Shown piece by piece: positions 11,752 to 63,652 of a stretch of 64,000 bases of DNA. Location of the stretch: contig BTPG01000004.1 in NCBI GenBank assembly GCA_036245525.1, forward strand, positions 20,601,146 through 20,665,145. The letters run 5' to 3'. A program made the position numbers and the translations under genes. Under the pieces are notes generated by a model. That model was not told where the DNA came from. It saw only the letters and a program-made list of their open reading frames with translations, and searched no databases. The DNA is from Semisulcospira habei (Eukaryota; Mollusca; Gastropoda; Semisulcospiridae). Position 1 is the first letter of the stretch; each line of letters begins with the position of its first letter.

Positions 11752-13458
11752 TCTTGGCTTGACTTCGCCGAACGAAGATTTTATAGGAGTTGCCCACGAC
11801 GTCTGCAGGCTTGTTCGTGGCTGCGGAGGCCAATCCGAGACTGGCAGGTTCGACCGCAGTGGCTGCAGGGGAAGGTATGGCCAGGGTTCTGAGCTGCGGC
11901 ATCTCTGTTTTTTCTCCTGAGCCGCTTGTCCTTAAGGCTAGCTCTGTGAGAGTCCTCAAAGGAGACAGCTGCCTTGTAAATGGTGGAGCGCCAGGTGTCA
12001 CGGTCCGCAGCAAGCGAAGACCACTGGTGGTGGTCGATTTGGCAGGCACTAAGTGACTTCTTGAGACAGTCTTTGTATCTCTTCTTTGGTGCCCCTCTGT
12101 CACGGTGTCCAGTAGCAAGCTCGCCGAACAGGGTGATCTTTGGTAGGCGATGATCCTCCATCCTGGAGACATGCCCCGCCCAGCGGAGCTGTGTCCGCAG
12201 CAGCAAAGCCTCGATGCTCACAGTTTCAGCCTGTTCAAGGACCTCGACGTTGGTGACATAGTCACTCCAGTGAATGCCCAGGATGGTACGCAGGCAGCGC
12301 TGGTGGAAGCGTTCGAGGAGTCGTAGTTGGCTGCGGTAGAGGGCCCAGGACTCGGATCCATACAGCAGGGTGGTGAGGACCACAGCTCTGTACACGCTGA
12401 TCTTGGTGCCTGTTTTCAGCTGTTGATTGTGCCACACCCGCTTGAAAAGTCGCCCGAAAGCGCTGTTCGCTTTTGCCAGCCTGCTGTCAAGCTCCTTGTC
12501 CAGCTTGGCGTCCGACGTGATAATGCAGCCGAGGTAAGTAAACTGGTGCACTGACTTTACTTCAGACTCGCCAATGGTGATGTGAGGAGGGCGATACACT
12601 GTCTTGGGTGCTGGCTGATGGAGGACCTCTGTCTTTTTCAGACTGACCTCGAGTCCAAAGAGCTGGGCAGCATCTGCGAAGCAAGACGTGATGCGCTGCA
12701 GGGCTCTCTCTGTGTGTGCAACGAGGGCAGCATCATCAGCAAAAAGCAGCTCACGAATCAGTTGGTCTAGGGTTTTCGTGTGGGCCTGCAGTCGTCTGAG
12801 GTTGAACAGGCTGCCATCGAGACGATACCTGATGTACACTGCATCGTCATCATCGAGGTCCACTGTGGCCTGCTTCAACATCATGCTAAAAAAGATGGTG
12901 AAGAGGGTCGGTGCCAGCACGCAGCCCTGCTTTACGCCGTTGAGAATAGGGAATGGTTCTGAGAGGTCATTGTTGAGTCTGACCTGGCCTTGCTGGTCCT
13001 CGTGTAGCTGGACAATCATGTTGAGGAACTTTGGGGGACAGCCAAGTCGCTCCAGGATCTGCCACATGCATTGCCTGCTCACAGTGTCGAACGCTTTTGT
13101 TAGGTCGACAAATGTTACGTACAGCCCTTTGTTCTGCTCGCGGCACTTCTCCTGTAGCTGTCTCAGCACAAAGACCATATCGTTGGTGCTCCTGTTTGCT
13201 CTGAAGCCACACTGGCCCTCTGGGAGGTGGTCTTCAGCGATGGCAGGTACCAGCCGATTCAGGAGCAGCCTTGCAAGGATTTTCCCAGCAATGGACAGCA
13301 GGGTAATTCCCCGATAGTTGGAACAGTCAGACTTCTCGCCTTTGTTCTTGTACAGGGTGATAACGACTGCATCACGGAGATCTTTTGGTAGTGTTCCTTC
13401 CTCCCAGCAGCAGAGAAAGAGGTCATGGAGCTTGTTGTGCAGTGCTGTGCCTCCATGT
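11752..13458 (-). mobile_element. 5'-truncated LINE (non-LTR retrotransposon) with 22-bp target-site duplication
   Basis: A 22-bp direct repeat (ttcactgaac...ataaaacc) lies at 11730-11751 and 13459-13480, exactly bounding the insert. The element lacks the endonuclease domain at its 5' end and has no poly-A tail. Its 3' end (reverse complement of 11752-11800) resembles the 3' end of the 61.5-kb LINE. Both belong to one broad family with a C-terminal zinc finger. I do not assign a clade. Confidence 0.85.
11781..13458 (-). pseudogene. LINE reverse transcriptase, open but 5'-truncated
   Basis: An uninterrupted frame runs to a stop at 11781. Counted in the longest frame from 13499, it holds fingers motif NYRGITLLSIAGKILARLL (61-79), palm A VDLTKAFDTV (131-140, catalytic Asp), GVKQGCVLAPTLF (188-200), catalytic FADD (253-256), thumb/connection with QLRWAGH, and a C-terminal C2HC finger (Cys545, Cys548, His561, Cys565). 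The first ~14 residues of that frame (positions 13499-13459) come from the target site and not the LINE. The RT domain has no stop, suggesting a fairly recent insertion. Without endonuclease and promoter it is a dead copy. Confidence 0.88.
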
Positions 13459-13499
13459 TTCACTGAACTACCATAAAACCACAGCCGTCCAAAAAACAT

Positions 13500-13627
13500 G
13501 GAGACAAATTGGTCTCAGCTAGAGGCATAGATCCTCATGAGTCCCATCAGTCGTGGGGGCTCATGAGGATCTATGCCTCTTTGCGGTTAGATCGTGTTCA
13601 CTTTTTCTCGTCAGTGAAGGGGGTTAA
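13500..13627. mobile_element. hpB MITE (right part to TTAA)
   Basis: The core at 13506-13588 has arms gaggcatagatcctcatgag / ctcatgaggatctatgcctc, with right TTAA at 13624. The left part is interrupted at the LINE insertion. Confidence 0.75.
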
Positions 13628-13648: not shown

Positions 13649-14000
13649 NNNNNNNNNNNNNNNNNNNNNNNNNNNNNNNNNNNNNNNNNNNNNNNNNNNN
13701 NNNNNNNNNNNNNNNNNNNNNNNNNNNNNNNNNNNNNNNNNNNNNNNNNNNNNNNNNNNNNNNNNNNNNNNNNNNNNNNNNNNNNNNNNNNNNNNNNNNN
13801 NNNNNNNNNNNNNNNNNNNNNNNNNNNNNNNNNNNNNNNNNNNNNNNNNNNNNNNNNNNNNNNNNNNNNNNNNNNNNNNNNNNNNNNNNNNNNNNNNNNN
13901 NNNNNNNNNNNNNNNNNNNNNNNNNNNNNNNNNNNNNNNNNNNNNNNNNNNNNNNNNNNNNNNNNNNNNNNNNNNNNNNNNNNNNNNNNNNNNNNNNNNN
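13649..14000. other. Assembly gap (352 N)
   Basis: Run of N; content unknown. Confidence 1.
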
Positions 14001-15515: not shown

Positions 15516-15585
15516 GGCAAGAGGCATGGATTCTCATGAGCCCCTGCCGCTGCAGGGGCTCATGAGAATCCGTGCCTCTTGCAGA
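15516..15585. mobile_element. hpB hairpin
   Basis: Arms ggcaagaggcatggattctc / gagaatccgtgcctcttgc around a gcccctgc-cgct-gcaggggc tip. Confidence 0.8.
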
Positions 15586-26134: not shown

Positions 26135-26506
26135 TCACGATAACGACATATCTGTCATACAAATATTAGAACCCACTGAAAGAGACGTGACCTTGACTTC
26201 GACCTTAACCTTGACAGGACGTCGGCGGCAGAGCCATGGAGGCAAAGCCTCCTTCACCTCGCTCCTGAATTTCTTCCCGGCGATGCAGTAGAGCAAGAAG
26301 TTGACAGCGTGGTTGGTGTAAGTCAGGCTGTTGAGCACTGTTCGCACCAGCTGGTAGCTGGCCTTGTCAAGGACGGTCACCGGCACCCAGCAATACCGCT
26401 CCACCACGATAATGACGGCCATGGGTGCGATGCAGACAAGAAAGATGAAGGTCACCAGTAGCAACATCAAGGTCATCTGGTGCATGAACGAAAGACCATT
26501 CGGACT
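26135..26506 (-). CDS. GPCR last coding exon: TM6, TM7, C-terminal tail
   Basis: The acceptor TTTGGTTCAG is at 26516-26507, phase 0. TM6 is HQMTLMLLLVTFIFLVCIAP, ECL3 RYCWVPVTVLDKASYQ, TM7 LVRTVLNSLTYTNHAVNFLL then YCIAGKKFRSEV (helix 8). The tail has Cys and basic residues, and the stop TGA is at 26137-26135. The NPxxY Pro is replaced by His, as in many peptide receptors. Confidence 0.9.
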   Translation of the reverse strand, partial: SPNGLSFMHQMTLMLLLVTFIFLVCIAPMAVIIVVERYCWVPVTVLDKASYQLVRTVLNSLTYTNHAVNFLLYCIAGKKFRSEVKEALPPWLCRRRPVKVKVEVKVTSLSVGSNICMTDMSLS

Positions 26507-27475
26507 CTGAACCAAATCAGTACATACGGGCAGGACTGTGGTTAGCATTTTAATTTAAAAACACGACAGCTTTGATATAAATTGTACCTTTCTTTGCACC
26601 AAGTTATAACCCCTTGATTGCCGGGATACAGCCAGAAGTGGGGCCCAACTGCAAGAGGAATAGAACCTCATGAGCCCCCGCGACTGCGGTGGCTCATGAG
26701 GTTCTATGCATCTTGCTTGCCTTATTGTGTATCCGTGTTCGTTGGAACGGTGGGGTTACATGCTTAGATTAACGATTGTTTTTGTCGCGCTTTTAAAGTG
26801 CATGACTGTACTTTTCTGCTGGGTCTCCCGTGCTTCTTCGCCCCATGTAGACTGAAGAAGGCTATAAGACAACGCGGAGATAAATACCGCCGAGAATGAT
26901 ATATCATATGCAACATCATCGGAATCATCGGAAACACTGAAGTGCTTCCAAGATCTGCGCCCGCGGCGGCTTAACCCGGAATCGCGTCCCAGGCTTCGGC
27001 GCTCACCGCGGCGGCACTCCTACTCGTCTCGGCTTGGCTTTTGGAAGGCTGTTGCGGAGACGGTCCTTTATCGGCCCGACACTCCAGCGCCATCCCGTTT
27101 CAGGGCTGGTTGATGATTCCGACGATTCCGCTGATGTCGCATTTCTTTTGCTTGTCCATATTCCTGTATGTGCTGATTTGATTCAGTGTCAGATTTAAAG
27201 CTCGAGCTGAGGGTTTAAAAAATGAAAACTTTTGATAATCCCGCCAGGGGTAACTGAACACGTCCGTCAGATTCAACAACAAATGATAATAAACCCACAT
27301 ACATTAATACATGTAGGCTATATTATTGGTATTGATGACCCAGCCGGAATCGGAAAGCTTATGAACAGACCTACTGTGTAACTATGCATTCTTATATATG
27401 TCAATGTCACCTGGCGTTCTCTCTCGGTCAGTCTGGAGTGAGTGAGGGGGGAGAAGGAGGAGGGCAGGGAGGAGG

Positions 27476-27509
<34 letters not shown>

Positions 27510-30500
27510 GCCCTCCGCGTAGACGTTGCGTGAGTGAAAAGATCGGGAAGATCGAATCTGTAACGATACTCAGGTGTTTAATCCCGTCACTGCCGGGACA
27601 ATGCAAACATCACGCAAGTGCAAAAGACATAGGTCCTCATGAGCCCCCGCAGTCGCGATGGCTCATGAGGATCTATGCATCTTGCTGACACAAGTTTGAT
27701 TCCACATTTCTTGGACGGTTGGGGCTCTGTCAATTTTCCAAATTTTTAACCCCTTTACAACACAAGAAGTAATCCCCAAAACACAAGAGGCATAGATCCT
27801 CATTCCCCGCAGTTAAAAATTTAGGGCATCTTTTTTTTTTCCACCGCGAAGGTGATTTCAAAGACGGGACACCGAACAGAGTCTGAACAAATTCTGACTC
27901 CAACTGTTTTCGAGCCCGCGACCTTTTGGACGAGAGTCGTACGCTCTTCCAACTGAGCAAAACAGTTTCCCAGCTAGAACGCCAAATACGCAACCAGTGT
28001 CCACTGGTAGGCAAAGTTGAACCCTTTTAGCCCCGGGACCCTGCAACAGGAGATGGACTGATCATGATAATTCAAGGGTAGTGCCAGATGAGCTTAAGCT
28101 CATCTGGCACTACCCTTGAATTATCATGATCAATCCTTCTCCTACAACTGCTACATAGTCGTTAGGCAACACCTCCCAAATTGGAGAAATGGGACCTTGG
28201 GGCTAAAAGTGTTAACAAGGAAACAAACCTGTCTGAGTATGAGCACGTTGAATACCACGAGAGAGGCGAGAGGAACGTAGCAGTAGATGGCCCCGTCCAC
28301 CTAAGGCCAGATCCTGTAAGCGTAGAAGTGCATTTCTGGGGCCGGACGACAGTAGGTTAGTCCCGTTGCCGCGTCACGCTGTTGACGTCTGAGAATAAAA
28401 CCATCGATAGACGGATTCAGAACTACTGGGCGCCTTTTGACGCAAACAGTGGATTAAAAGCCCGGACAAACATGTGATGTTGCATGTTTGTCAGGGCTTT
28501 GAATGTTTTTGTCGAAACACGCAATCTTGACCTGTTTCTCCTATGACTTCCAAACAACGTCTATACGACTAGCCTATCGCAAGAAGAACACAAGCAGGGT
28601 GCGCTTTAAAAAAACGCTTCACTGCAAAGAAAAGCTGACCGGGATCCTTCAGTATAAACCACTGCAAGATGCATGTCTGTGCAAACTGGACTGTTTTAAC
28701 GTTTTCTTGGCTTTGAATGCGTTAATACCAGACACGCGAACTGTTTGATATTAGAAGGAAATCTCATACACACTGCTTGCGGGTCTGACCAAAATGTGAG
28801 TCCTTCTTACCTGATAAACACGTGCTGTAAGTCGAACCCGGCCACTATAAATGCCAGCCCCGCCACTAGCGCGCGCGCACGTGCAACGGTCAGGCAACTG
28901 GCGGCCCTCAAGGGTCTGCACACAGCCAGGTAGCGCTCGGCCGTCATGGTCACCATCAGCACCACGCTGTAGTGGATGGAGAAGAAGAAAAAGGCGTACA
29001 TCAGCCCGCACGTGCCCTCCTGCAACAGAATGTGTCACTGAGCAAAGATAAGCGGCTTTATGTCGCGTATCCGGATGCGGCACGTCTCGATTGAGATAAT
29101 CTGTATACATACAGTCATCTTTTGTGGTACGTCTCGATGATTGAGATAATCTGTATGCACACAGTCATCTTTTGTGGTACGTCTCGATTGAGATAATCTG
29201 TATGCACACAGTCATCTTTTGTGGTACGTCTCGATTGAGATAATCTGTATGCACACAGTCATCTTTTGTGGTACGTCTCGATTGAGATAATCTGTATGCA
29301 CACAGTCATCTTTTGTGGTACGTCTCGATTGAGATAATCTGTATACACACAGTCATCTTTTGTGAATTTAGGAAGAAAACCAATGTTTTGCGCATATACA
29401 CATCCAATTCTACGCACATAGATTTACAAAAAAAATTACCCGCCCCCACGGGCCCCCCAACAAAAAAACAATACGGAACAAAAAAAAACTAAACAAACAA
29501 CTGCAAAAAGACCCCCCCCCCCCCCATAAAAAGACCAAACAAACACAACAACAACTAATAAACAAAATGAAACATCAACATGAACAACATCAACAGCACC
29601 ACCACCATCATCAACAACAACAACACGACAGTCATATGTGTCCTCACCATCAACGTTTCGTTGGCAATGAACTTGCGCACGAATATCAATAGGTTGGCAA
29701 TCTGCAAAGAACAGTTGGACGCTTCAGTGAGATCCAGATCCAAAAGGTGACTGCCGATCGTGTAAAACAAGAGAACAACCCAACCAAAAATGAAACACGC
29801 TTAGAAAAGGCAGTCACAACACAATTTATTGATATTTCGGGCTTTTCAAAATAGACATACAAACGGGCACACAATTTTCAGCTTATCTCTTCGTGATGGG
29901 AAGATGCAACTGGAAATTTGCAATTTGTGTACTTGTTTGTAAGTCGAAAAAAGGGTTTTAACTCATTGTACCCCAAAACCGAAATCCCCAAATGTTGCCG
30001 TTGTCCTCTGAAGACTGCATTGCAGTGTGTGACACAGATCGACCATGATATTTCAAGGGTGATGCCAGAATAGCTTGGCGCCCATAGGCGCCAAGCTATT
30101 CTGGCATCACCCTTGAAATATCATGGTCGATCCACATCTTGCTGTGGTGTGTCTGGGGTAGAATGAGTTAACCCGAGATATTAATAAATTGTGTTGTAAC
30201 GGTATTTTCTACGCGTGTTTCTTTCTTCGTTTGGCTGTTCTCGACGCTTCAGTGATCTATTGACGACATAAGTGAGGCACGTGAGCTTTCATGGACCGCC
30301 CTTGATCCATCTGTCTTTTTTTGCAGTGGCAGTGCAAACTGGCATCCTCGATCCGACTCCATGAACTGCCATGAAGTCTTCAGATGACAGCTCCGGAAGT
30401 TAGGAAATTGCAACATTAGGGCTGAATGTGCAGACATCTTCATGCCAGTGGACGCAGATTATGTTTCAAACCAACATTAGGGCTGAATGTGTTGACATCT

Positions 30501-32940
30501 TCATTGCCAGTGGACGCAGATTATGTTTCAAAACAACATTAGGGCTGAATGTGTTGACATCTCATTGCCAGTGGACGCAGATTATGTTTCAACAAATCTT
30601 TTCAGTTCCAACATCAGTGAGCCCAAACCCTCCAAACAGCATGAATACAAAGCGGGAGGGTGTCAGCAAGAGGCATAGATCCTCATGAGCCCCCGCGAAT
30701 GCGGGGGCTCATGAGTATCCATGTCTCTTGCAGTTGGACCCCAAGTCACTCAAGGAGCATGGGTACAAAGTGGTGTCAGCAAGAGGCATAGATACTCATG
30801 AGTCCCCGCGAATGCGGGGGATTCATTAGGATCTATGTCTCTTGCAGTTGGATCCCTAGTCACTCAAGGAGCATGGGTACAAAGTGGTGTCAGCAAGAGG
30901 CATAGATACTCATGAGTCCCCGCGAATGCGGGGGATTCATTAGGATCTATGTCTCTTGCAGTTGGATCCCAAGTCACTCAAGGTGCATGGGTACAAAGTG
31001 GTGTCAGCAAGAGGCATAGATACTCATGAGTCCCCGCGAATGCGGGGGATTCATTAGGATCTATGTCTCTTGCAGTTGGATCCCAAGTCACTCAAGGTGC
31101 ATGGGTACAAAGTGGTGTCAGCAAGAGGCATAGATACTCATGAGTCCCCGCGAATGCGGGGGATTCATTAGGATCTATGTCTCTTGCAGTTGGATCCCAA
31201 GTCACTCAAGGTGCATGGGTACAAAGTGGTGTCAGCAAGAGGCATAGATACTCATGAGTCCCCGCGAATGCGGGGGATTCATTAGGATCTATGTCTCTTG
31301 CAGTTGGATCCCAAGTCACTCAAGGTGCATGGGTACAAAGTGGTGTCAGCAAGAGGCATAGATACTCATGAGTCCCCGCGAATGCGGGGGATTCATTAGG
31401 ATCTATGTCTCTTGCAGTTGGATCCCAAGTCACTCAAGGTGCATGGGTACAAAGTGGTGTCAGCAAGAGGCATAGATACTCATGAGTCCCCGCGAATGCG
31501 GGGGATTCATTAGGATCTATGTCTCTTGCAGTTGGATCCCAAGTCACTCAAGGAGCATGGGTACAAAGTGGTGTCAGCAAGAGGCATAGATACTCATGAG
31601 TCCCCGCGAATGCGGGGGATTCATTAGGATCTATGTCTCTTGCAGTTGGATCCCAAGTCACTCAAGGTGCATGGGTACAAAGTGGTGTCAGCAAGAGGCA
31701 TAGATACTCATGAGTCCCCGCGAATGCGGGGGATTCATTAGGATCTATGTCTCTTGCAGTTGGATCCCAAGTCACTCAAGGTGCATGGGTACAAAGTGGT
31801 GTCAGCAAGAGGCATAGATACTCATGAGTCCCCGCGAATGCGGGGGATTCATTAGGATCTATGTCTCTTGCAGTTGGATCCCAAGTCACTCAAGGTGCAT
31901 GGGTACAAAGTGGTGTCAGCAAGAGGCATAGATACTCATGAGTCCCCGCGAATGCGGGGGATTCATTAGGATCTATGTCTCTTGCAGTTGGATCCCAAGT
32001 CACTCAAGGAGCATGGGTACAAAGTGGTGTCAGCAAGAGGCATAGATACTCATGAGTCCCCGCGAATGCGGGGGATTCATTAGGATCTATGTCTCTTGCA
32101 GTTGGATCCCAAGTCACTCAAGGTGCATGGGTACAAAGTGGTGTCAGCAAGAGGCATAGATACTCATGAGTCCCCGCGAATGCGGGGGATTCATTAGGAT
32201 CTATGTCTCTTGCAGTTGGATCCCAAGTCACTCAAGGTGCATGGGTACAAAGTGGTGTCAGCAAGAGGCATAGATACTCATGAGTCCCCGCGAATGCGGG
32301 GGATTCATTAGGATCTATGTCTCTTGCAGTTGGATCCCAAGTCACTCAAGGTGCATGGGTACAAAGTGGTGTCAGCAAGAGGCATAGATACTCATGAGTC
32401 CCCGCGAATGCGGGGGATTCATTAGGATCTATGTCTCTTGCAGTTGGATCCCAAGTCACTCAAGGTGCATGGGTACAAAGTGGTGTCAGCAAGAGGCATA
32501 GATACTCATGAGTCCCCGCGAATGCGGGGGATTCATTAGGATCTATGTCTCTTGCAGTTGGATCCCAAGTCACTCAAGGAGCATGGGTACAAAGTGGTGT
32601 CAGCAAAAGGCGTAGATCCTCATATGCCCCAGCATTCGTGGGGGCTCAGGAGGATCTATACCTCTTGCAGTTGGATCCTGTTCAGTATTTCTAGGCAGAG
32701 AAGGGGTCAATGAGGCGAACGCACCTGGACGAAAGTGTCGGCAACACACAACGCTGCCATGAATATGTAAGTGGAGCTCTTGGTGCGGGAACGGAGCAAA
32801 ACCCAGACGGAGAGACTGTTGCCCACAATACCGAGGGCCACAATGATTGGTTTGTAGATGTAGTCGATGTATACGGCCACCACATACTCCGGCACTTTTT
32901 CCAAACTGATGTTCTCAGCAGCGTGGTCTGCTTCAGTCGT
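26135..32940 (-). CDS. Class A (rhodopsin-like) peptide GPCR, six coding exons, one in-frame stop
   Basis: The exons, in reading order, are 32725-32940, 29648-29701, 28811-29019, 28229-28388, 27411-27557 and 26135-26506. All internal junctions are GT-AG with matching phases. Joined, they give about 385 residues. TM1 has the GN motif, TM2 has the conserved Asp (CVAD), TM3 ends in ERY (the DRY motif), and ECL2 has the conserved Cys (LTYC). TM5 has YVPLASLVVFNVLIL. ICL3 has a poly-Asn run. TM6 has FLVCIAP. TM7 is NHAVNFLLYCIAGKKF in place of NPxxY. The NxxVNFxLY form of TM7 and the ERYLAVCRPL loop resemble invertebrate FMRFamide-receptor-like proteins. The ligand is not known. A TAG at 28303-28301 falls between ECL2 and TM5. 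A start codon was not found in exon 1, so an upstream exon is likely. Confidence 0.85.
26600..26758. mobile_element. hpB MITE in GPCR intron
   Basis: Hairpin 26650-26716 (arms gcaagaggaatagaacctca / tgaggttctatgcatcttgc), with usual flanks ataaccccttgattgccgg and acggtggggtta. Confidence 0.8.
27411..27557 (-). CDS. GPCR exon: third intracellular loop with poly-Asn
   Basis: 147 bp (49 codons), phase 0 both ends, acceptor TATCGTTACAG, donor GTGACATT. Reads IRSSRSFHSRNVYAEG, a run of 11 Asn from a (AAC)n tract (27478-27510), then TSSLPSSFSPLTHSRLTERE. It is hydrophilic and basic, with many phosphorylatable Ser/Thr, as expected of an ICL3. Confidence 0.78.
27578..27749. mobile_element. hpB MITE, complete, at GPCR exon acceptor
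   Basis: TTAA at 27578 and 27746. Hairpin 27615-27687. The left end is 17 bp from the acceptor AG of the ICL3 exon. Confidence 0.86.
27746..27824. mobile_element. hpB MITE, truncated, sharing TTAA
   Basis: ttaacccctttacaacacaa then caagaggcatagatcctcat and a broken tip. It starts in the TTAA of the preceding copy. Confidence 0.7.
27842..27985 (-). mobile_element. tRNA-derived SINE in GPCR intron
   Basis: The minus strand has the A box ttgctcagttggaagagcg and B box ggtcgcgggctcgaaaac, then the body cagactctgttcggtgtccc shared with 24.95 and 57.15 kb. Confidence 0.72.
28016..28215. mobile_element. hpA MITE next to GPCR splice donor
   Basis: Hairpin 28062-28134 (arms gggtagtgccagatgagctt / aagctcatctggcactaccc), right TTAA at 28212, only about 12 bp from the donor GT of the ECL2-TM5 exon. 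Confidence 0.85.
28229..28388 (-). pseudogene. GPCR exon: ECL2-TM5, with premature TAG
   Basis: 160 bp, acceptor TTTTATTCTCAG, donor GTTTGTTT. Phase 2 in, phase 0 out, as the neighbours require. It reads GLTYCRPAPEMHFYAYRIWP, then a stop, then VDGAIYCYVPLASLVVFNV and LILRQ. The reading on both sides is receptor-like in the same frame, so the TAG (28303-28301) is a point change, a polymorphism or a sequence error. Truncation here would remove TM5-TM7. Confidence 0.82.
28811..29019 (-). CDS. GPCR exon: TM3-ICL2-TM4
   Basis: 209 bp, acceptor TTCTGTTGCAG, donor GTAAGAAG. Encodes EGTCGLMYAFFFFSIHYSVV, then LMVTMTAERYLAVCRPL (TM3, ERY motif, ICL2) and TM4 with VAGLAFIVAGF. Ends in phase 2. Confidence 0.9.
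29080..29364 (+). repeat. 47-bp minisatellite, six units
   Basis: Units start at 29080, 29127 (50 bp), 29177, 29224, 29271 and 29318, each gtacgtctcgattgagataa then tctgtatgcacacagtcat. The first 20 bp derive from an hpC arm (gatgcggcacgtctcg at 29073). Lies in a GPCR intron. Confidence 0.93.
29648..29701 (-). CDS. GPCR 54-bp exon: end of TM2 and ECL1
   Basis: The acceptor CTTTGCAG and donor GTGAGG bound exactly 18 codons, phase 0 on both sides: IANLLIFVRKFIANETLM. The exon joins the CVADTFVQ of TM2 to the CGLMYAF of TM3 with normal spacing. Confidence 0.85.
29731..30242 (-). mobile_element. SINE-J copy with 13-bp target-site duplication, carrying a nested hpA
   Basis: gacgcttcagtga lies at 29718-29730 and 30243-30255. 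Left part ccaaaaggtgactgccgatc and gaaacacgcttagaaaaggc, right part aaattgtgttgtaacggta. An hpA MITE (29958-30171) interrupts it. Confidence 0.82.
29958..30171. mobile_element. hpA MITE, complete, nested in SINE-J
   Basis: TTAA at 29958 and 30168. Hairpin 30052-30128 with perfect arms ggtgatgccagaatagcttg / caagctattctggcatcacc. Other SINE-J copies read straight through this point (gggtatttacccgaaatatt), while here the sequence is gggttTTAA-[MITE]-TTAAcccgagatatt. Confidence 0.92.
30411..30600 (+). repeat. ~62-bp direct repeat, three units
   Basis: Units of aacattagggctgaatgtg then gacatcttcattgccagtgg then acgcagattatgtttcaaa start near 30411, 30472 and 30535. ccagtggacgcagat is the usual left end of hpB, so this is the hpB left arm in triplicate. 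Confidence 0.88.
30667..32690 (+). repeat. 114-bp satellite array, 18 units, each with an hpB hairpin
   Basis: Unit starts fall every 114 bp from 30667 to 32605. Each unit is a ~70-bp hairpin (gcaagaggcatagatactca / ttaggatctatgtctcttgc with tip gtccccgcgaatgcggggga) plus a ~44-bp linker. Inner units are nearly identical. A ggAgcat/ggTgcat site marks units 1, 2, 8, 12 and 17 with A. The first and last units are diverged, as at array edges. It lies in the first visible GPCR intron. Confidence 0.96.
32725..32940 (-). CDS. GPCR exon: N-terminus, TM1, start of TM2
   Basis: Encodes an extracellular tail with an N-glycosylation site (NIS), TM1 PIIVALGIVGNSLSVWVLL, ICL1 RSRTKSST and the first part of TM2 (MAALCVADTFVQ). 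The donor is at 32724 (CAG|GTGCGT). The acceptor is placed at CCAAAG|ACG (32941), with CAG|ACC a few codons on as an alternative. There is no ATG in frame before the upstream stop region. Confidence 0.82.
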
Positions 32941-32984
32941 CTTTGGAGGAATCAATAATTTAAAAAAAGTCAGTTTTCAAAGTC

Positions 32985-37251: not shown

Positions 37252-37717
37252 GGGGATAGGAGTAATTAGTCTACGTGGGCGACGATTTTGTCATGCCATT
37301 GCTTTTTCTCCCCTCTGCCGATATAACATTTCCCATTGATTTCTTTTCTCTGCATTTTACTCACTTAATGTATCACAATGGAACCATTTCACCAAATGAC
37401 AAACAATAATTACAGGTCACCTAAGCAAACTTTTCACGTCTAAGTGGATTGTAAGCTTATTTGAAGGTAGTAAGATTATGTTATTATTGTTACAATGTCA
37501 ATGATCGTGAGTTTCTTTACAAGCACACACACGCACACAGAGAAACGACCACTAAACATAACACTGAGAACTTGGGCAAACAACCAACCAAACCAACAAA
37601 AACACGACAGGATCCACGTAAGCAAAAACAACATCAGCAACAATGACGTCTGAGCGAACGAACGAAAAACGAAATCCAGCATTACAACGAGCAAACAGGT
37701 AAGCAAGCTATCAATAC

Positions 37718-37770
37718 AAACAAACAAACAAACAAACAAACAAACAAACAAACAAACAAACAAACAAACA
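37718..37770 (+). repeat. (CAAA)n microsatellite
   Basis: About 13 units of caaa. Confidence 0.92.
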
Positions 37771-37789
37771 GAGTAGCCAGAGTACTCCT

Positions 37790-38320
37790 GTTGATTCCTG
37801 CACGTCCTGGAAGCTGAAGTTGTCGTCTGACGTTCATGATCCCCTTCAGGGTGCCAAGCGAGGTGGCGTACACAATGACAAACACACCCGCGCACTGTCA
37901 ACCCGAAGGGGGGTCCAGGGTCCTCACCCCCATCCACCGAGCACCTGAAACAGGTGACTGCGTGGTCGCTGCGGGGGATCCGACCCTTAGACCCTAGGGG
38001 TGTTGGGGGGTGGGGCAGAACACAGCAGCTCTAGAAAGAGCAGCAGTGACGAAGTAAGCGTTATTGTCGTAAGATCATCTCTTCAAACGAAGTAAGCGCC
38101 ATGGTGAGAACACCCACAATACACGGCGCCGCCTGACGGAGCAGACGACACAGTGCCTGTGTTAATGGTGGACTGGAGACGACGGGTGGACCCCGGCCTT
38201 ATATCGGGTAGAATGTCTGACGATAAAGTTCTCAGCTGCACTCCTCCGTCTGCAAGAGGCATAGATTCTCATGAGCCCCTGCGAATGCAGGGGCTCATGA
38301 GAATCTATGCCTCTTGCTGC
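37790..38320 (+). repeat. Left copy of ~530-bp inverted duplication
   Basis: Reverse complement of 44663-45203 with high identity, including an hpB hairpin at its right end (38250-38319). Contains gtaagcgccatggtgagaac and ggacccccct-type blocks. Partial frames on opposite strands share VDGGEDPGPPFGL and HCVRH, but no protein family is recognised. Confidence 0.85.
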
Positions 38321-44662: not shown

Positions 44663-45203
44663 ACCAGCAATAGCCATGGATTCTCATGAGCCCCTGCATT
44701 CGCAGGGGCTCATAAGAATCTATGCCACTTGCAGATAGAGGAATACAGCTGAGAACTTTATCGTCAGACCTTCTACCCGATATAAGGCCGGGGTCCACCC
44801 GTCGTCTCCAGTCCACCATTAACACAGGCACTGTGTCGTCTGCTCCGTCAGGCGGCGCCGTGTATTGTGGGTGTTCTCACCATGGCGCTTACTTCGTTTG
44901 AAGAGATGATCTTACGACCATAACGCTTACTTCGTCACTGCTGCTCTTTCTAGAGCTGCTGTGTTCTGCCCCACCCCCCAAACACCCCTAGGGTCTAAGG
45001 GTCGGATCCCCCGCAGCGACCACGCAGTCACCTGTTTCAGGTGCTCGGTGGATGGGGGTGAGGACCCTGGACCCCCCTTCGGGTTGGCAGTGCGCGGGTG
45101 TGTTTGTCATTGTGTACGCCACCCCGCTTGGCACCCTGAAGGGGATCATGAACGACAGACGACAACTTCACTGAGTTTCCAGGACGTGCAGGAACTATCA
45201 ACG
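44663..45203 (-). repeat. Right copy of ~530-bp inverted duplication
   Basis: Inverted match of 37790-38320. Includes the hpB hairpin 44665-44733. The frame 44961-45254 contains the same VDGGEDPGPPFGL peptide. Confidence 0.85.
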
Positions 45204-45288
45204 CCGGGAAGTACACGTGTTTTCTGGTTTTGTTTGTTTGTTTGTTCAGTGTAGTTAGTGTTTGTGTGTGTTCATTCGGTCTGTTTGT

Positions 45289-46994: not shown

Positions 46995-47204
46995 CCCATT
47001 CTACCCCAGACACCCCACAGCAAGATAAGGATCGACCATGATAGTTCAAGGGTGATGCCAGAATAGCTTGGCGCCTATGGGCGCCAAGCTATTCTGGCAT
47101 CACCCTTGAACTATCATGGTCGATCTGTGTCCTGCACTGCAATGCAGTCTTCAGAGGACAACAGCAAAATTTAAGGATTTCGGTGTTGGGGTAGAATGAG
47201 TTAA
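46991..47204. mobile_element. hpA MITE, complete reference copy (214 bp)
   Basis: TTAA at 46991 and 47201, ends ttaacccattctacccca / ttggggtagaatgagttaa, hairpin 47034-47124 with perfect inner arms ggtgatgccagaatagcttg / caagctattctggcatcacc. Confidence 0.92.
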
Positions 47205-50552: not shown

Positions 50553-50632
50553 TTAACTCATTCGAGACGTGCCGCCTCCGGATACGCGGTATAAGCCGCG
50601 TACCCGGATGCGGCACGTCTCGAATGAGTTAA
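50553..50632. mobile_element. hpC hairpin MITE, reference copy (80 bp)
   Basis: TTAA both ends, arms ttaactcattcgagacgtgc / gcacgtctcgaatgagttaa, near-perfect to the tip. Confidence 0.9.
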
Positions 50633-51874: not shown

Positions 51875-52290
51875 GAGTCCCTGTATGGACTCATGTGGAT
51901 TTATGCCCATTTCACGTGAATGGGGTCTAATGCACTGACTAATGAGGATCTATGCCCTTTTAACGAGGATGGGGTCTAATGCAATGATCTATGAGGATAT
52001 ATGCCCTTTTCGCGTGGATGGCGTCTAATGTATACTGACGCATGTGTTTTGTTGTTGTTGTTGTTGTTGCCCCCCCCCCCCCTTCCCATGGATGGAGTCT
52101 ACTGCACTCATACACTGGCAGGAGGATATATGCCATTTTCACGTGGACGGGGTCTGATGCACTGACTTATGCCTTTTTTTGCCTTTGTCTGCTGCGTTGA
52201 TACATGAGGATACACGCCTTTTTCACATGGATAGGATCAGCCGCACTGCCTCGTAAGGATCTATGCCATTTCACATGGACTGGGTCTGCT
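51875..52290 (+). repeat. Degenerate ~50-60-bp tandem repeats from hpB
   Basis: About seven diverged units of atgaggatctatgccctttt, cacgtggatggggtctaatg, cactgac. The aggatctatgcc piece is an hpB arm. Confidence 0.68.
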
Positions 52291-53165: not shown

Positions 53166-53654
53166 AACCCACAAAGATTTCAGAAAAAGATTGCGACCAC
53201 TGGCAAAGAAGGGTTTGGTTTTAAGGAATGGTGCCATCAGAAACTAGGACTGTTTCGAGTGGTCTTTAACTCCGCGCGTTTTATCACACAGTTGTTGCCA
53301 TTGGTACAAATTCTAATGTTACAAAGGTGTCAGAAAACATACGGTCATCGTTTTTTCTTTATTTTTTCATTAAAAAAAAAATTATCCAGTAGAAAACAAC
53401 CTTGCTCACGTCATTTTGTTGCGTGTGCGTTGGGGACGGTCACAATTTAAATTTAAGCCCCAGGGACATGTTTCGTCTGAGGTGATGTTGTGGGAGTTAC
53501 TGAGGCTGATCACTCCTTACAAGCAAGAAGCTTCAATTAGTTCTTCGTTAAACGCCTGCACATGCTGCATCTTGCAAATGAAAGGGTTTGGTTGACGGAC
53601 TCCACATTAAAATTAAAGTACCAATGTTATTGTAACGAAGGTGGGTGGGGTGCG

Positions 53655-53771
53655 TTCACTCATTCAAGGCGCCCCGAAACATTAGCTGCGGAAGTGTCGT
53701 AAAGCGTTGCCGGCGGCAACGCTTTACGACACTTCCTCAGCTATTGTTTCGGGGCGCCCTGAATGAGTTAA
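53655..53771. mobile_element. hpI hairpin MITE (117 bp)
   Basis: Right TTAA at 53768, left TTCA. Arms ctcattcaaggcgccccgaa / ttcggggcgccctgaatgag and inner gtgtcgtaaagcgttgcc / ggcaacgctttacgacac. The ends resemble hpC; the body is different. Confidence 0.82.
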
Positions 53772-53842
53772 CCCCATTGTATAATGCAGCTGACACCGGC
53801 GGTACTGATCAGTTATTCCTATTTATGTCCCCCTTGCACATG

Positions 53843-59232: not shown

Positions 59233-59455
59233 TTAATTAGCCCATTCTCTGCCAGTGGACGCATATTTTTGGGGGGATATTGACATCTTTGTTCACTCAG
59301 CGACGAAAAGCCACAACCGTCCGAGGACTACGGATACACATTGGTTTCAGCAAGAGGCATAGATCCTCATGAGCCCCCGCAGTCACGGGGGCTCATGAGG
59401 ATCTGTGCCCCTTGCGGTTGGATCCTGTTCACTTTTTTCTCAGCAGTCAAGAAGG
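59233..59455. mobile_element. hpB MITE
   Basis: Left TTAA at 59233, left arm ctctgccagtggacgcata, hairpin 59347-59415. A second right-arm fragment follows at 59450-59490. Confidence 0.82.
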
Positions 59456-59499
59456 CTCATGAGGATGTGTTTCTTGCAGTTTGATCCGGTTCACGTTTT

Positions 59500-61360: not shown

Positions 61361-61558
61361 CTGATGTTACTGTTGAAAAGGGTAACAGCCTGAGGGATCT
61401 ACTTCTCTTGAGTATAGTTGATACTGGATGCTCATTCGTTTTATGATTTTTGTCTCTTTCGTCTGAAGAATCCACTGCAGCGCACTTATGCCGTTAACCC
61501 ATATCATACTGAGGCTAAAAGCTTCACTTGAAATGTGTACACTGCCATATGCAAGGGG

Positions 61559-63652
61559 ATGGTGACGGAGTCTGCCAAAGACGTGCTTGGACCCAAGCAG
61601 AGAGTACACCAGGATTGGTTTGATGAGAACAATGAAGAGATCACTGACAACTGGAGCAAAAGCGCAGTGCCTTCATCGAGTGGCAGAACGACATCAACAC
61701 CTTGTCCAAGAAAGACCGCTTCAAACACCTTCAGAGAAAAGCCCAGAGAGAGAGAGCTCCGCAACATGCAGGACACCTGGTGGGACGGCAAAGCAAAAGA
61801 ACTTGAACACTTCGCTGAATCCAGCAACTCCAAGGAGTTTTTCAGCGCTATGAAAGCTCTCTACGGCCCTGCCAGACCCAGCACAACCCCTTTCTTTTCC
61901 GCCGACGGCTTCACCTTGCTAAAGGACAAAGGCAGCATCACTGAGCGCTGGAGAGAACACTTCTCAAATCTGCTGAACCTGCCTTCCACTGTCGATCCCG
62001 CGGCCCTGGACATGATTCCCCAGAAGCCGACACTGGATGAACCTGACCTCCCGCCAACCCTGGACGAGGTCAAGAAAGCGATCAACCAGACTAGCTCCGG
62101 CAAGGCTGCAGGCATGGACGGCATCCCCGCAGAGCCGCTCTTCAAAGCAGCTGGACCTGAGACACTTGATGCCTTCCTCAACATTCTGACATGCATCTGG
62201 GCAGAGGAGAACATGCCACAGGAATTTAGAGATGCTACAATCGTCTCCCTGTTCAAGAACAAGGGCAGCAAAGCAGACTGTGTCAATTACCGAGGGATCT
62301 CACTCACGTCCATTGCTGGCAAGATCCTTGCGAGAGTCATCCTCAACCGCCTGATCAGCTCTGTATCTGAGGAAGCACTCCCAGAGGCTCAATGCGGCTT
62401 CAGACCCGGCCGCAGCACAGTCGACATGGTCTTCTCTGTGAGACAGGTCCAGGAGAAATGCATTGAGCAGCACATGGACCTCTACGCTGTCTTCATAGAT
62501 CTGACCAAAGCATTCGACACCGTAAACAGAGAAGCGCTTTGGGTCATCCTCGCAAAGCTCGGCTGCCCCAGGAAGTTCACCAACATCATCCGCCTCTTCC
62601 ATGATGGAATGGTAGGAGTTGTCCAGTCAAACGGCGACACATCCGCACCCTTCGACATTTCCAACGGTGTGAAACAAGGTTGTGTTCTTGCTCCCGTGAT
62701 GTTCAACCTGTTCTTCACGTGTGTCCTGACCCATGCAGTACGCGACCTTGAGAAGGGAGTGTACCTGAAGTACAGACTAGACGGCTCTCTCTTCGACCTC
62801 CGTCGACTGAACGCCAGGACCAAGACCATCGAGAGACTGATCCTTGAGGCGTTGTTTGCCGATGACTGTGCGCTGATGGCGCACACGGAGTCTGACCTCC
62901 AGACCATCGTCAACAGGTTCTCGGAAGCCTCTCGACTGTTTGGCCTCACCATCAGTCTCAGCAAGACCGAGGTCCTGCACCAACAGGCCCCAGGCACGAG
63001 CCCCCCCCCCCCCCCCCACAAAGTGTACATCGAAGGCACCGAGCTGAAGACTGTCGACCAGTTTAAGTACCTTGGAAGCATCATCTTATCTGACGGTACT
63101 ATCGACAAGGAAATCGCAGCTCGCATCAGCAAAGCCAGCCAAGCCATGGGTCGCCTGCGCACTCGTGTGTTAAATAACAACAACGTCAAGCTTTCCACCA
63201 AGATCAAAGTCTACAAGTCAGTAGTTATCCCCAGCCTCCTCTACGGCTGTGAGTCATGGACGCTGTACAGAAAGCACCTCAAGCAGCTTGAACATTTCCA
63301 CATGAGATCCCTGCGCTCACTCATGGGCATCAAATGGCAAGACAAGGTGACAAACCTGGAAGTCCTGGACAATGCTGGCTTAGTGAGTGTTGAAGCCTTG
63401 ATCTTAAAGACACAACTCCGCTGGACAGGTCATGTCATACGCATGGATGATTCTCGCATGCCACGCCAACTCCTGTATGGTTCACTCTCAAAAGGCCACA
63501 GGAAGCAAGGACGGCCAAAGAAACGCTTCAAAGACTGCATAAGAGACAGCCTCAAGCACTGCGTCTTCCCGGTGAATGAACTTGAAGCACAAGCACAAGA
63601 CAGATCCGGCTGGCGTGCCGCCACCAGACAGGAAAGCTTGCATGCTCTTTGA
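61559..63652 (+). pseudogene. LINE reverse transcriptase ORF, truncated and frameshifted at C-terminus
   Basis: The first ATG inside the element is 61559. The longer frame begins at 61535 in the MITE and adds seven foreign residues. Numbered from 61535: linker DWFDENNEEI (28-37), RWREHFSNLLN (139-149), NYRGISLTSIAGKILARV (251 on), IDLTKAFDTVNRE (palm A), NGVKQGCVLAPVMF, FADD (441-444, catalytic), thumb with LLYGCESWTLY and QLRWTGHVIRMD. An 18-C run near 63001 encodes PPPPP in the loop after KTEVLHQQAP. The frame stops at 63652, while the matching zinc-finger segment is in another frame. Confidence 0.9.

Follow-up and report, generated by a model that had tools for sequence, protein, structure and literature searches.

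A hairpin array in an intron of a predicted GPCR gene of Semisulcospira habei is the enlarged middle of a TTAA-flanked hairpin MITE

The array of 18 hairpins held in an intron of a predicted rhodopsin-type GPCR gene of Semisulcospira habei is the enlarged middle of a single TTAA-flanked MITE, a member of a family designated B1, as follows from the MITE left end before the array (at 30431) and the right end after it (at 32706). The window, i.e. the whole stretch of 64,000 nucleotides that was analysed, corresponds to C4:20601146-20665145 of a 1.98-Gb genome in 507 contigs, which was itself searched; coordinates without a contig name refer to the window. It is probable that a single old B1 copy was duplicated across its hairpin and then expanded in place, that a small triplet at its left boundary arose separately, and that the array is most likely passive. 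The locus consists of the following parts:

30411..30592, + strand: triplet of tandem copies of 61, 62 and 59 bp (from TRF, repeat families D8 and D9 and alignment to the B1 consensus)
30431..30434, + strand: decayed left TTAA of triplet copy 1, reading CAGA (TTAA inferred from other B1 copies)
30492 and 30554, + strand: decayed left TTAA of triplet copies 2 and 3, reading TTGA
30593..30665, + strand: remainder of the MITE left arm (from alignment with solo B1 copies)
30666..30731, + strand: hairpin of unit 1, a diverged outer unit
30732..30778, + strand: first spacer, MITE right arm joined to left arm (consensus 191 to 80)
30779..32602, + strand: units 2-17, sixteen in all and almost identical, 114 bp each and made up of a 67-nt hairpin followed by a 47-nt spacer
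32603..32668, + strand: hairpin of unit 18, a diverged outer unit, with the loop ATTC and not GAAT
32669..32706, + strand: MITE right arm and right end, ..GGCAGAGAAGGGG as against ..GGCAGTGAAGGGG in the B1 consensus
32707..32710, + strand: decayed right TTAA, reading TCAA

In the assembled window the 18 hairpins stand head to tail, starting at 30666, then at 114-bp spacing from 30779 to 32489, and finally at 32603. The preliminary description had this number right, but its unit of exactly 114 bp does not hold for the first step, which is 113 bp and is followed by sixteen steps of 114 bp. TRF reported the array at 30659-32678 (period 114, 17.7 copies, 98% matches) and, directly ahead of it, a second one at 30411-30592 (period 61, 3.0 copies), in agreement with the earlier claim of two tandem amplifications side by side. 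Compared with unit 6, the other fifteen of units 2-17 contain 5 differences in 15 x 114 = 1,710 bases, located at position 92 (units 2, 8, 12 and 17) and position 79 (unit 2), and the near-identity claimed for the inner units is therefore real; the outer units, however, are diverged, the hairpin plus 10 nt being 91% (unit 1) and 81% (unit 18) identical to unit 9. A higher-order repeat based on the A/T variant at position 92 was considered and rejected, the number of transitions being 6 against a shuffled mean of 5.99. Among copies the hairpin loops occur both ways round (GAAT and ATTC, GACT and AGTC; compare 30666-30731 with 32603-32668), as if the core of the palindrome flips.

The composition of the repeats differs in part from what had been described. 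The unit does derive from the hairpin MITE hpB, but what had been taken for a ~44-bp piece of its arm is a 47-nt spacer, in which the start of the right arm is joined to the end of the left arm. Similarly, the three ~62-bp copies of the hpB left end are indeed three, but just ~40 bp of each repeat is B1 left end, with an alignment score of 45 that none of 500 shuffles attained, and the remaining ~20 bp appears to be flank outside the element, as judged from the alignment of the decayed TTAA sites. The feature had also been ended too early, at 32690, the B1 element itself reaching 32706.

The B1 consensus, including TTAA, measures ~217 bp and is made up of 107 nt, a 66-nt off-centre hairpin and 44 nt. 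It begins TTAACCCCTTCACTGCCAGTGG.. and finishes TCTCGGCAGTGAAGGGGTTAA; its ends are written CCCCTTCACTGCC../..GGCAGTGAAGGGG, with the inverted ends TTAACCCCTTCACTGCC / GGCAGTGAAGGGGTTAA. The family was built from 16 rows of the window (14 solo copies and the 2 outer array units) and 20 genome copies, the latter picked as near matches to the array unit; an exact TTAA was counted by eye at the right end of 8 of these 20. Outside the array, the window contains the hairpin a further 29 times, with partial ones counted, and a search of viral and prokaryotic contigs for it gave 0 hits. As a short non-coding element with inverted ends and a target-site duplication, and with an internal array of variable copy number (18 units here, two hairpins in each of the dispersed loci L049 and L066), B1 fits the description of a tandem-repeat-containing MITE. 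The terminal inverted repeats of piggyBac elements start with CCC, and B1 agrees with that superfamily in its TTAA target and in a terminal inverted repeat beginning CC(C). With Kolobok (T2-MITE) elements it shares TTAA but not the terminal AGGRR, its start being CCCCTTC.

Two further classes were rejected. Non-autonomous Helitron/Helentron elements lack target-site duplications and inverted ends and carry a 3' CTRR after a terminal hairpin, whereas B1 is bounded by inverted ends and TTAA targets, and its hairpin is internal. The arrays of classical satellite DNA are long and abundant, commonly at several loci or in heterochromatin; here the full unit occurs at one locus among the candidates scored, extends over ~2 kb and lies in a gene intron.

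On the sequence of its exons, the host gene is predicted to be a rhodopsin-type GPCR gene on the minus strand, represented by the following features:

32725..32976, - strand: TM1-bearing exon of the GPCR (final base 32725, followed by the 5' splice site GT, 32724-32723; the open frame extends to 32976)
28811..29019, - strand: exon of the GPCR that encodes TM3 and TM4, between an acceptor AG (29021-29020) and a donor GT that begins at 28810
26135..26554, - strand: open frame with GPCR TM6-TM7

The three exon translations, when joined, matched Pfam 7tm_1 with an E-value of 3.3e-12, as well as class A receptors of solved structure, GPR139 and the opioid receptors among them; by itself, the TM1 frame had no more than a sub-threshold match to Srw, and the TM6-TM7 frame had no match. 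Scans for a small exon that would encode the end of TM2 did not find it, each giving one weak candidate. The array lies between the TM1 exon and the TM3-TM4 exon and is therefore intronic, as the preliminary description had maintained, with 18 bases separating the right end of B1 from the last base of the TM1 exon.

When the genome was searched with the 114-bp unit, 17 full-length matches were obtained among the 40 scored of 1,283 candidates, all of them at the array locus; the other matches among these 40 end by query position 92 and represent solo hairpins. A genome-wide 114-bp satellite independent of hpB, which the preliminary description had named as the observation that would speak against its view, was accordingly not found among the 40 candidates scored of 1,283. 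An exact pattern of hairpin end, spacer and hairpin start had 18 matches in the genome, 16 of them in the array. A looser pattern with exact anchors had 40, comprising 16 in the array (of its 17 junctions) and 24 single ones elsewhere, and the reversed-pattern control gave 0/0. Neither junction pattern reveals a second long array in the genome, and the term satellite, used earlier for a supposed MITE-to-satellite transition, is overstated for a single locus, although the derivation of the unit from a MITE is upheld.

The 24 junctions outside the array, grouped by sequence by the analyst, are of 20 kinds, from which it seems that tandem hairpin pairs were formed repeatedly in this genome. Their number is probably an undercount, since the anchors were required to be perfect and the spacers short. 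Best-fit breakpoints, calculated for 22 rows (one per kind, the second member of a pair at C1:247 Mb, and the present array), are scattered, right arms ending at 178-217 and left arms starting at 74-105, as would be expected for an imprecise process around the hairpin. Some of the 24 may be neighbouring insertions and not duplications, because for several of them the best-fit split leaves just 3-8 nt of left arm or has a low score; at C3:58228771 the spacer includes the whole right end and TTAA. A near-identical junction recurs at four dispersed places (C5:65444315, C5:70500482, C95:19962 and C195:15761), which may reflect a transposing dimer or a segmental duplication. Two of the 24 outside junction places, L049 and L066, were read; each contains two hairpins, TRF gives no hpB array at either, and the present array is the sole expanded case found. 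The two hairpins of L049 have an identity of 0.89 to each other, as against 0.85 for the first of them to the consensus. It is suggested, tentatively, that hairpin MITEs of this genome repeatedly undergo imprecise hairpin-spanning tandem duplication, that the resulting dimers may disperse, and that rare ones, such as the present array, reach runaway expansion.

The course of events considered probable for the locus would start from a single old B1 copy sitting just inside the GPCR intron. A tandem duplication spanning the hairpin, most likely through slippage during replication or a switch of template at the hairpin, would have joined the right arm to the left arm and produced a 113/114-bp repeat containing the whole hairpin. 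Unequal exchange or slippage would later have raised the number of inner units to 16 and made them uniform, leaving the old outer units diverged, and a separate small duplication over the left boundary would have given the ~61-bp triplet.

That there was one founder, with aged outer units, is favoured with modest confidence, and a derived arm base common to unit 1 and the spacers, present in 1 of 33 solos, argues for it. Each of the three array hairpin types is nevertheless closer to some solo than to its array mates, unit 1 being 96% identical to L019 and L010, 91% to unit 9 and 79% to unit 18, a closeness biased by the selection of solos L009-L028 for their likeness to the inner unit. It is conceivable, though rather unlikely, that two or three nearby B1 copies recombined and the hybrid repeat expanded, with units 1 and 18 as remnants of different insertions; a hybrid-element model (Hikosaka and Kawahara) and double insertion (McGurk and Barbash) are both outlined in PMC12628747. 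The unit 18 hairpin, 79-81% identical to units 1 and 9, is indeed no closer to them than window solos are to one another (mean 0.806). It also stands apart in the smaller tree, where units 1 and 9 group together (support 90/72), and in the larger tree all three are separate. However, the AU test did not reject units 1, 9 and 18 as one clade (p 0.22 in the smaller tree, 0.31 in the larger; 0.47 for units 1 and 9 alone), the shared arm base links unit 1 to the spacers, no complete MITE end or TTAA is found between units, and early duplication with ageing of the outer units yields the same picture.

An origin from a B1 that inserted already as a dimer, in which case dimers would themselves transpose and this one would have expanded in place, has a decidedly small probability. 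The junction of L066 (contig C7) at 192-193 / 78-79 lies within 1-2 nt of the 191 / 80 found here and adjoins the B1 right end GGCAGTGAAGGGGTTAA, and the near-identical junction at four dispersed places (C5 twice, C95 and C195) would suit mobile dimers, but those places may be segmental duplications. Moreover, the L066 hairpins (0.88 mutually) show no particular closeness to unit 1, 9 or 18, the first of them having identities of 0.91, 0.88 and 0.85 to these units as against 0.95 to the consensus. As for an ordinary genome-wide satellite or minisatellite that contains an hpB-like piece by chance, no observation in its favour came to light, and both the restriction of the full unit to one locus (40 scored of 1,283 candidates) and the MITE arms on the two sides of the array make it extremely improbable. 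The confidence placed in these rival readings does not treat them as mutually exclusive.

The founding of the array by a single B1 is thus preferred, and the same applies to its being most likely passive, with no RNA function of the hairpin indicated by the predicted folds. The earlier statement that every unit can fold is valid for units in isolation, but the inner ones fold more weakly than most solos, and in the minimum-energy fold of the whole array 14 of the 18 units fold locally, on either strand. The predicted energy of an inner unit is -44.1 kcal/mol on the + strand of the window and -35.5 kcal/mol on the - strand, and is exceeded in stability by 16 of the 21 solos on the former strand and by all 21 on the latter; the corresponding values are -53.9 kcal/mol on either strand for unit 1 and -36.8 (+) and -38.6 (-) for unit 18. 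Covariation in the hairpin arms is pronounced, with 26 cells changed on both sides against a shuffled mean of 8.6 (0 of 500 shuffles as high), but says little on selection, as nine copies differ at two of the pairs, and these pairs account for 18 of the 26 cells. That the hairpins are kept for a function in the pre-mRNA, whether as double-stranded RNA, as a source of small RNA or in the control of splicing or editing of the GPCR, is considered very improbable. The element ends just 18 bases from the last exon base, and local folding is predicted for 14 of the 18 units on the sense strand, as such a function might lead one to expect; on the other hand, the inner hairpins contain uncompensated mismatches, the sense-strand inner hairpin is weaker than all 21 solos in either solo strand, and no Rfam match was found in the window at gathering thresholds.

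Hairpin MITEs were rejected as a general source of arrays. In a sample of 20 x 10 kb spaced evenly over contigs C1 and C2 (188 kb without N), none of the 17 tandem arrays with a unit of 25 bp or more overlaps the MITE families, which cover 5.0% of the bases, and expansion of these MITEs is therefore uncommon; the same sample gave 26 hits to the B1 query, B2 hairpins included. In the window, the tested hairpin MITE families occupy 12.5% of the sequence outside the array, as against the 5.0% of the sample, and 4 of 7 TRF arrays touch a MITE at a period of 40 or more, a stricter cut than that used for C1 and C2. One of the window arrays again spans an element boundary:

29082..29364, + strand: second boundary-spanning array (TRF), 47 bp x 6, each repeat being an 18-bp hpC end and 29 bp

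It lies in the same intron, beside the TM3-TM4 exon, and hpC is another TTAA hairpin MITE. The sequence adjoining the array aligns to hpC over 51 nt with a score of 65; the 47-mer alone scores 19, which 7 of 500 shuffles also reached. The 49 x 3 array at 51888 had no MITE hit; an alignment of 22 nt is obtained if the region is taken instead, and its B1 score was reached by 1 of 500 shuffles. A partial duplication that arose independently is seen in a B1 copy at 59350-59499, in which half of the hairpin and the right end are repeated in tandem (62 bp x 1.9). The overlapping arrays at 1245-2105 (76 bp x 5 and 96 bp x 5.5) had no significant match to the tested hairpin MITEs.

Other repeats of the window include hairpins of a second type, B2, at 15517, 17244, 18287, 23133, 38252, 44667, 46539, 56200 and 60444. 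Their core is almost the same as that of B1, with paired changes from CG to UA at two positions, and their flanks are unalignable to B1 and, mostly, to one another. A longer repeat of 624 bp is present in two copies (37716-38319 and 44665-45288) that are 92% identical, and 98% identical in the 395 bp beyond the hairpin; both start at a B2 hairpin, with an unrelated sequence on the opposite side, which gives the hairpin the look of an element terminus. Further families of hairpin MITEs, hpA, hpC, hpD, hpE and hpF, are represented, for example, at 30037-30132, 47030-47125, 50553-50632 and 53654-53772. LINE-like long open frames with the reverse transcriptase domain RVT_1 occur at 11781-13514 (- strand, E-value 3.7e-35) and 61532-63652 (+ strand, E-value 2.2e-35), and an assembly gap (a run of N) at about 13650-14000.

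Tandem arrays derived from MITEs are already known, and this locus looks like another case, at an early stage. MITEs of the clam Donax trunculus reportedly contain an internal tandem array and are alike in this respect; in the present case a long hairpin forms part of the unit, and the genome has pairs of hairpins joined at many different points. In searches of open-licence literature, none of the papers listed described the B1 element, as judged by title and opening part of the abstract. Models for the passage from MITE to tandem repeat in Xenopus (Hikosaka and Kawahara; Scalvenzi and Pollet) are outlined in PMC12628747, which also cites the tandem-repeat-containing MITEs of D. trunculus (Satovic and Plohl 2013). 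As PMC6004289 presents them, T2-MITEs with TTAA target sites and the terminal motif AGGRR contain an amplified internal segment, Xstir. The Xenopus elements Xstir / Xmix (T2-MITE, Kolobok superfamily; Hikosaka and Kawahara 2004) are accordingly similar to B1 in being TTAA-target MITEs with a tandemly amplified internal segment; they differ, on that account, in that Xstir is a large repeat family whereas the B1 array was found at one locus, and in their AGGRR termini, B1 starting CCCC... For Drosophila, PMC12628747 reports dimers of transposable elements and a 16-copy expansion of hobo (McGurk and Barbash 2018). That expansion resembles the present one in its derivation from a transposable element, in its similar copy number and in being proposed as an early satellite birth, but the dimers are attributed there mainly to insertion-site preference, whereas here just the inner part of the element is repeated. 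The miDNA4 Tc1/mariner MITE of Xenopus (Scalvenzi and Pollet), with one to many internal monomers and a proposed role of microhomology, is according to PMC12628747 thought to have captured a pre-existing repeat; here, in contrast, the repeat consists of sequence native to the MITE.

How satellites arise from transposons is usually deduced from arrays that are already complete. The present locus retains in one place the founder element with its ends, the junction at which the arms were fused, a homogenised core and outer units that have diverged, and these preserved stages, together with the hairpin pairs that have other junctions elsewhere in the genome, make the order of events (duplication, then expansion) and their rate testable. 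The finding is also relevant to the question of whether hairpins in DNA favour tandem duplication in vivo. If the tentative reading of repeated duplication is true, the genome would offer a graded natural series from solo to dimer to 18-mer, and with it a means of measuring the earliest steps in the birth of a satellite.
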